From positions 248,001 to 312,000 of the forward strand of contig CANNBJ010000003.1 in the NCBI GenBank assembly GCA_947502835.1: a stretch of DNA of 64,000 bases, given 5' to 3'. Source of the stretch: Bdellovibrionales bacterium. Lineage in GTDB: Bacteria; Bdellovibrionota; UBA1018; CAIMNF01. A model generated the notes under the pieces. It ran no database searches, was not told the DNA's origin, and saw only the letters and a program-made list of their open reading frames with translations. A program made the position numbers and the translations under genes. Below are positions 9,592 through 53,594 of the stretch, in pieces (the stretch's first letter is position 1; each line of letters opens with the position of its first letter).

Positions 9592-9705
9592 GTCATCCCT
9601 TTGGAATTATGGGGATTACGCCGACTCTTGCGAGTCAGGAATGACGAAAGCAAGGCCGCAGGACGCGGCTCGGAGGTGTAATCCCCATAATTCCAAAGGA
9701 ATGAC
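9592..9705. repeat. 28-bp-arm palindromic element with 58-base core
   Basis: The left arm 9592-9619 and right arm 9678-9705 are inverted repeats with one mismatch in 28 bases. Weaker symmetry continues outward for about 12 more bases. The core 9620-9677 contains the decamer CCGCAGGACG, also present in the cores near 26.7 kb and 53.4 kb. No reading frame is credible in this region. Confidence 0.85.
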
Positions 9706-26309: not shown

Positions 26310-26380
26310 TTCCCCTCCGCCGAAAAAGGATTGTTTCAGTTTTCATCCTTCTTCAATGATAACCGAAGCGATAGAAATGA

Positions 26381-26797
26381 CAAAAGCCTGAGTCCGAGGA
26401 TCCCTGTACGCTGATTCTCATTTTGTGTGATGGAGAAAGGTTTGGGTATCCACGGGGAGTCACTCGCCACATCCTGTGGCTCGCCCTTCGGGCGGCACTC
26501 ACGAGGTTCGCGCCGTGCAATTTTATCTTCCTGATAAAATTGTCGAACCCCTGAGCTCGCATTCGTATACGAACGCTCGCGCGTGCCTTCACCTCCTCCG
26601 TGGGGACGCCATTTTCCTCTCCATTTGAACGAGCACAGGTAACGCGCAGGGATCCTTGTACGAATGGGATACGAGTTCCGCAGGACGAATGGCAAAGCCT
26701 TGAGTCCGAGGACTGTTTGAAGTAGGCCATTCGTACAAGGATCCCTATGCGCTAATTTTGATTTTGTGAGATGGAGAGGAAAATGGCGTCCCCACGG
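26381..26797. repeat. tRNA-Glu-linked palindromic array
   Basis: This non-coding stretch is built from copies of the tRNA-Glu 3' end and flank. An exact 27-base inverted copy of 26771-26797 (which includes the last 14 bases of the tRNA) lies at 26598-26624. An exact 20-bp inverted pair is at 26648-26667 and 26727-26746, around a core at 26668-26726. A degraded direct copy of flank 26740-26777 (32 of 38 bases) lies at 26399-26436, fused to a core fragment at 26381-26400. Between 26461 and 26597 are several small perfect hairpins, for example CAATTTTATC/GATAAAATTG around 26518-26542, TTCGTATACGAA and GCCACA/TGTGGC. Confidence 0.85.
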
Positions 26798-26859
26798 GGA
26801 GTCGAACCCCGGTTACTGCCGTGAAAAGGCAATGTCCTAGGCCTCTAGACGATGGGGAC
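26784..26859 (-). tRNA. tRNA-Glu (anticodon TTC)
   Basis: The acceptor GTCCCCA/TGGGGAC, anticodon loop TTTTCAC on a TTGCC/GGCAG stem, T-arm CCGGGGTTCGACTCCCCG (last pair into the loop region), discriminator G and encoded CCA are all present. It reads GAA and GAG. Its 3' end is duplicated in the downstream array. Confidence 0.95.
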
Positions 26860-53191: not shown

Positions 53192-53248
<57 letters not shown>

Positions 53249-53267
<19 letters not shown>

Positions 53268-53594
53268 TTCTTTTCCTTACTCACTTCCACCCAGATTAAA
53301 GTATTTCCCCGTTCCATCCAAAGGCTCCCGCTTCAGACAGTCCTCGGACTCTCGCATTCGCGATCGTCCTGCGGAACTCGCGTCAGCCTTTGGATGGAAC
53401 GGGGAGTTCATTTGAATCTGCATGGGGGGTAAGGGAGAGAATGGTCGAGTCGGAAGGGATGAGGACTCGCGTGAAACTCCCCGCGAGTTCGTTCACGAGG
53501 ACAGGATGGCCGAGTGTGCGGAGCGAACAAAAGTTCGCGAAGCCCGAAGGGTTCCGACCAGTATGGGAGGAACAATCCCGCCGGCTCGACCATT
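53249..53594. repeat. tRNA-Pro-linked palindromic array
   Basis: The tRNA 3' end and flank 53256-53280 recur inverted at 53429-53453 (22 of 25 bases). An exact 20-bp inverted pair 53307-53326/53385-53404 encloses a 58-base core (53327-53384). Then 53574-53594 is an exact 21-base direct copy of tRNA sequence 53249-53269. The segment 53454-53573 holds small hairpins (GCGAAC/GTTCGC; CGTGAA/TTCACG). A 168-codon open frame crosses the array but has no protein support. After 53595 nothing recognisable is seen until the next gene. Confidence 0.85.

Follow-up and report, generated by a model that had tools for sequence, protein, structure and literature searches.

Hairpin-rich, gene-less inserts with copies of the tRNA tail downstream of tRNA and tmRNA genes in a Bdellovibrio-like bacterium

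Results

Inserts downstream of tRNA-Glu and tRNA-Pro

Many tRNA genes and the tmRNA gene of this 2.73-Mb Bdellovibrionales genome are followed by gene-less, hairpin-rich inserts of roughly 180–280 bases, which carry a displaced copy and often also an inverted copy of the tail of that very tRNA. These inserts look like a previously undescribed family of tiny elements that insert at tRNA ends. Our starting point was a stretch of 64 kb, hereafter the window, in which the region downstream of tRNA-Glu had been described in the original prediction as tRNA 3′ end and flank, a core, an exact 27-base inverted copy of the tRNA end, a hairpin cluster and a degraded direct copy of the flank, with arms specific to this tRNA and a core shared with the tRNA-Pro locus. 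We could confirm this observation, with the one correction that the 27-nt inverted copy includes 13 nt of the trailer and is therefore not a copy of the mature tRNA end alone. The features of both loci are collected in Table 1.

At tRNA-Glu the two outer arms are 146 nt apart, and the inner palindrome consists of perfect arms around a 59-nt core. Within the degraded part the trailer copy (26392–26436) is 82% identical and is followed by a broken second copy of the core (26376–26400). The tRNA-Pro locus repeats this plan with the same core and nearly the same spacings (outer spacing 148 nt, loop 58 nt), but with copies of its own tail. A scan of the whole window for closely spaced inverted repeats (score 14 or more) returned only five pairs, two at tRNA-Glu, two at tRNA-Pro and one 5′ of tRNA-Arg, the latter having only the palindrome. 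Exact copies of both core blocks occur in the whole genome only at the Glu and Pro loci. Single-strand folding of the inner palindromes gave z-scores of −6.9 to −8.7.

Table 1. Features of the two loci and of a related palindrome (positions in the window)
Position	Strand	Feature	Evidence
26784–26859	−	tRNA-Glu(ttc); its last 21 nt (26784–26804, C56 to A76) are the segment copied downstream	ARAGORN and Rfam RF00005
26771–26797	−	outer arm: tRNA 3′ end plus 13 nt of trailer	exact 27-nt inverted match to 26598–26624
26727–26746	−	inner palindrome, tRNA-proximal arm	20/20 complementary to 26648–26667
26668–26726	−	class B core of palindrome 1 (CTTCAAACAGTCCTCG...CTGCGGAACTCG), in the terminator slot	shared with tRNA-Pro, tmRNA, orthologues in genomes G008 and G011, and Bdellovibrio intergenic sites
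26648–26667	−	inner palindrome, distal arm	
26598–26624	−	A′: inverted copy of the tRNA-Glu 3′ end and trailer start	27/27; tRNA-Glu ranks 1 among 41 tails
26462–26597	−	hairpin cluster (second cluster type, contains GGGGTTCGAC copied from the T-arm)	sequence; not matched by the type I model R3
26450–26461	−	displaced direct copy of the tRNA-Glu T-arm (GACTCCCCGTGG)	rank 1 of 41
26376–26449	−	displaced trailer copy and a truncated second palindrome whose proximal arm and first core box are deleted	repeat families D1 and D2
53192–53267	+	tRNA-Pro(tgg), second locus with the same plan	
53306–53326	+	inner palindrome at tRNA-Pro, proximal arm (21 nt)	
53327–53384	+	class B core at tRNA-Pro	
53385–53405	+	inner palindrome at tRNA-Pro, distal arm	
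53429–53453	+	A′: inverted copy of the tRNA-Pro 3′ end and trailer	25-nt arm, spacing 148; rank 1 of 41
53454–53573	+	hairpin cluster at tRNA-Pro	
53574–53594	+	displaced direct copy of the tRNA-Pro 3′ end (AATCCCGCCGGCTCGACCATT)	score 19, rank 1 of 41
9592–9705		related palindrome (28-nt arms, 58-nt core), about 85 bp 5′ of tRNA-Arg(ccg); no tail copies	core alignable by eye to the one behind tRNA-Ser(tga) (stretch L049, 1650–1708)

Census of tRNA and tmRNA genes

The absence of such arrays from other tRNA genes had been named as an outcome that would refute the original prediction. We analyzed all 40 tRNA loci and the tmRNA gene and scored the last 21 nt of every gene against every downstream flank. 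For 14 of the 41 genes the gene's own tail gives the best direct match, always downstream and in the same orientation. The own tail also gives the best inverted match, at lower scores, for Glu, Pro, Gln, Ser-tga, Arg-acg, tmRNA, Met and Ser-gga, and the inverted copy (A′) is strong at only 6–8 of the units in this genome. The upstream flanks contain nothing comparable except where a neighbouring tRNA gene lies. A covariance model of one core class (class A, model R1) has 11 clear hits in the genome, all of them behind tRNA or tmRNA genes. At the tmRNA gene three units follow each other, of class B, A and A, each separated by a fresh copy of the tmRNA tail.

Conserved layout and a branched module

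We then compared the units across genus-mates and more distant families (genomes are numbered with G, the stretches taken from them with L). The geometry is preserved: the palindrome lies 13–21 nt after the tRNA, the inverted T-arm usually at +131 to +149 and the direct tail copy usually at +250 to +277. At Leu-cag, Ala-tgc, one Met and Ser-cga, and in a short form at Asp, an ordinary intrinsic terminator replaces the palindrome while the rest of the layout remains. Thus the first hairpin occupies a terminator slot.

The most constant part lies between A′ and the direct copy. This module (type Ia) is 106–108 nt long at Gln, Arg-tcg, Met, Arg-ccg, Cys, Ser-cga and tmRNA. Its alignment (A5; 71% mean column identity) gives a closing stem made by A′ and the tail copy, a three-way junction with two hairpins and a further hairpin ending at the tail copy. 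Compensatory changes on both sides are seen in 17 of 37 pairs, P1 varies with tRNA identity, and G-U outnumbers A-C. The right junction is usually GC followed by C56, and T54 and T55 are not retained. A model built from eight such modules (R3) found further modules at other tRNA/tmRNA tails, including two Val copies, the second and third tmRNA units, Leu and Met, which were not in the training set, and at two orphan loci with tRNA-tail fragments. It found nothing in about 200 kb of control DNA, comprising the 64-kb window and about 150 kb of other DNA, apart from the Arg-tcg unit itself.

The clusters at Glu and Pro are of a second type which R3 does not match and whose structure is less well defined. 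In L039 (from 1578), L052 (from 1574) and L124 (from 1281) this second type contains the T-arm 5′ strand and T-loop of its own tRNA (e.g., CGTGTTCGA at Arg-tct and CGTGGGTTCGA at Ser-gga) followed by a hairpin insert, as if the displaced tRNA copy had itself been interrupted at the T-loop.

Presence, absence and accretion of units

At the orthologous tRNA-Glu/sppA site six relatives (L138–L142 and L144) have no unit, whereas the site is occupied in the window, in L137 and in L145. Of the latter two, one has the class B unit followed by a class A unit and one has a minimal form with palindrome and tail copy only. At Arg-tcg in G008 the left trailer is new, while the right trailer, beyond the displaced tail, resembles the trailer seen in the genome of the window. 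Met in G011 has a newer unit before an older broken one, and older units farther from the tRNA have palindromes broken near the centre (L102, L121, L135 and L136). The modules fall into two families that each span many tRNAs, and Arg-ccg and Met carry different families in different genomes. In addition, the variable loop of the last hairpin is nearly the same at Arg-acg and Ser-cga of the genome of the window, and at its Gln and an orphan unit in G002. Movement between tRNAs, or recombination between units, must therefore have happened.

Search for a recombinase and for related sequences

A search with Pfam PF00589 showed four tyrosine recombinases in the genome: XerC- and XerD-like proteins, a third Xer-like protein and a phage-type integrase. 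None of them reaches the cut-off for integron integrases. The third Xer-like protein was considered as a partner of the units, but it is absent from several genus-mates which carry units. In G005 (contig 509, L220 2121–3533) a tyrosine recombinase gene of 404 aa ends about 100 nt before a palindrome unit that starts with a tRNA-like CCGCCA end, with a displaced tmRNA 3′ fragment about 300 nt beyond. In G002 (contig 266, L217 2852–7447) two units in the same orientation bracket about 4 kb with a LysR-type regulator, a methyltransferase and other genes, which looks like cargo between cassettes; AbiE-like genes and a homologous tyrosine recombinase gene follow. This association is suggestive only. 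In G084 an autonomous element between inverted hairpins was considered, but the pair flanks ordinary genes.

No match was found in phage records, and plasmid matches covered only the tRNA itself. Comparison with Rfam returned only tRNA and tmRNA, weak matches on one locus being far below the gathering scores. A binding site of a tRNA-primed retroelement was considered and rejected because the inverted copy runs past CCA into the trailer, so that a mature tRNA is not the source. Literature searches, which cannot be regarded as complete, found no description of such elements.

Palindrome cores outside tRNA genes and concerted change of the arms

The class B core is not tRNA-specific. In complete genomes of another genus (Bdellovibrio-type) and in G095 it occurs in several to about ten copies per genome, mostly at non-tRNA intergenic sites, each with its own near-perfect arms of 20–45 nt. 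Orthologous copies show paired substitutions: 15 doubly changed pairs stay Watson–Crick, 6 of them transversions, against 7 other changes. Twice, at L247/L305 (genomes G109 and G120) and at tRNA-Pro, almost the whole arm pair is replaced while the core stays, and at L247/L305 the flanks are 88–96% identical. These findings fit template-switch copying between arms (PMC8794818). In L304 (47–91, contig 1 of G120) the palindrome centre reads as N, possibly an assembly gap at a long hairpin.

We also asked whether the arms are RNA stems under selection. In about 1300 arm pairs there are 1194 Watson–Crick, 20 G-T and 12 A-C pairs, with no strong G-U signature. Neither can we claim that arms are always duplicated target flank, since at the one well-resolved empty site in Bdellovibrio about ten species hold a short, terminator-like hairpin instead and no single copy of the arm is present.

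Discussion

The displaced tail, which starts in the T-loop and lies always downstream and in the same orientation, is the signature of site-specific integration into tRNA genes (PMC4383910), and T-loop attachment sites are established (PMC1762012). We therefore tentatively propose, as the best of several explanations and without regarding it as established, that the units are small non-coding integrative elements entering at the 3′ part of tRNA and tmRNA genes. In this view each insertion would leave the tRNA with a tail that may be supplied by the element, a new trailer with a hairpin in the terminator slot (a long palindrome of class A, B or similar, or an ordinary intrinsic terminator), the inverted copy A′ of the T-arm/acceptor end, the branched module and the displaced old tail starting at C56 to about A58. 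New units would enter next to the tRNA, and older ones would be pushed away and decay, the long palindromes breaking near their centre. The tail copies, the layout, the tRNA specificity, the tandem accretion, the presence or absence at an orthologous site, the conserved module and the concerted evolution of the arms are borne out by our analysis. We only infer, however, that a tyrosine recombinase acting in trans cuts in the T-loop, as for phages and islands of the T-loop class, that A′ pairs with the direct tail copy so that a folded single strand rebuilds the attachment site, and that units are retargeted to new tRNAs. The units contain no gene, no recombinase was shown to act on them and no circular or excised form was observed. 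Presence and absence could also arise by deletion between the direct copies.

The original prediction had inferred a fold-back or template-switching process or a small mobile palindrome which copies the tRNA end, and this interpretation is partly supported. The arms are specific to the adjacent tRNA, many other tRNAs carry the plan, the concerted arm changes fit template switching, and the unit behaves like a mobile element. The palindrome core is, however, not itself the agent which copies the tRNA, because class B cores occur at non-tRNA sites and ordinary terminators can take the place of the core at tRNAs.

Template switching alone, in which a polymerase copies the tail forward, turns at a hairpin, copies it backward and turns again, would give the order tail, inverted tail, tail which is seen at Glu, Pro, Gln, tmRNA and others, and hairpin-rich tRNA genes might simply be prone to this. 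Template switching also creates and maintains hairpins (PMC8794818). Yet it does not create the 106–108 nt module shared by different tRNAs and by tmRNA, nor new trailers and terminators to the left of the displaced tail, and the Bdellovibrio empty site examined has no single arm copy; we consider it unlikely as the sole process. We regard as equally unlikely that the units are a host-encoded cis-acting RNA module for tRNA 3′ processing, termination or regulation, with the palindrome as terminator or RNase III site and with A′ and the cluster competing with the tail fold. The terminator slot, the position of the non-tRNA class B palindromes between genes, the terminator-like hairpins found in other species in the one case examined and the excess of G-U over A-C in the module agree with this view. 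On the other hand most tRNAs lack a unit, the tRNA-Glu site is empty in six relatives, the arms show little G-U bias, unlike RNA stems under selection, and displaced tails and tandem decaying copies are not needed for processing. Least likely appear scars of ordinary tRNA-targeted islands (phages, ICEs) whose attL and attR ends remained after loss of the cargo. The tRNA with a displaced 3′ fragment is their classical signature, two units lie beside integrase genes, one pair brackets 4 kb of cargo, and integrases sit near tRNA-Glu in L139 and L144. But independent deletions would not leave the same structured module at seven different tRNA/tmRNA identities, nor three consecutive units at tmRNA.

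A more far-reaching reading, which is not excluded but which we consider unlikely on present evidence, is that of a new class of gene-less mobile element in Bdellovibrionota whose folded single strand carries both a sense and an antisense copy of the T-arm/acceptor tail of the host tRNA. This would let a recombinase acting in trans stack terminator-bearing cassettes behind any tRNA or tmRNA, with the target specificity rewritten by fold-back copying of the tail of each new tRNA. Since island finders discard tRNA-fragment intervals which are under 2 kb and without an integrase (PMC4383910), a whole size class of tRNA-linked elements could be invisible. If the folded-site model holds, tRNA genes host integron-like cassette stacking and the arrays become a natural record of insertions. 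The orthologous palindromes also give clean bacterial examples of multi-base compensatory change and whole-arm replacement in perfect hairpins, which bears on how long stems arise and persist.

With the tRNA/tmRNA-targeted islands of tyrosine recombinases (the Islander principle; T-loop class, e.g., mycobacteriophage Ms6) the units share the displaced 3′ fragment in the same orientation downstream and starting in the T-loop, the tandem arrays, the use of tmRNA, and presence or absence at an orthologous tRNA. They differ by a size of about 180–280 bp instead of at least 2 kb, by the inverted tail copy and the branched module and by the lack of an integrase inside, only the orphan loci in G002 and G005 having a neighbouring integrase; the length and integrase filters of Islander would discard them (PMC4383910). 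The inverted copy and the covarying closing stem suggest a folded single-strand site as in integrons and CTXphi (PMC4792948). Like attC sites, the units have a conserved structure with variable sequence, complementary arms, the newest unit nearest the fixed site and a length in the attC range. The fixed site is, however, a tRNA T-arm, the GTT/AAC crossover motif is not present at the right junction, and no integron integrase reached the cut-off in this genome, so we claim only a working analogy. In the case of the CTXphi attP, two inverted copies of the target separated by a hairpin region could likewise pair to rebuild a double-stranded target, which we infer by analogy; the targets here are tRNA/tmRNA tails rather than a dif-like site acted on by XerCD, and there are no phage genes.

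Template-switch (quasipalindrome) mutations also produce multi-base compensatory changes and perfect arms in one event (PMC8794818), but they are a mutation process and not an element, and do not supply the conserved module. The rtT repeats of E. coli tyrT, on which a literature search found nothing usable, are repeats downstream of a tRNA which include the tRNA 3′ end; they are direct only and at one locus, and an inverted copy or a branched module is not known from them. REP/REPIN and MITE elements are likewise short non-coding intergenic palindromes. REP/REPIN elements have conserved palindrome arms at scattered intergenic sites and a RAYT partner, whereas here the core is conserved and the arms differ at every locus, the reverse of REP and MITE, and insertion in this genus is strictly at tRNA/tmRNA tails, as for all 11 class A hits in the genome. 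In contrast to MITEs with their conserved terminal inverted repeats and short target duplication, no terminal repeats are shared between loci, and the direct repeat is the tRNA tail of about 21 nt.
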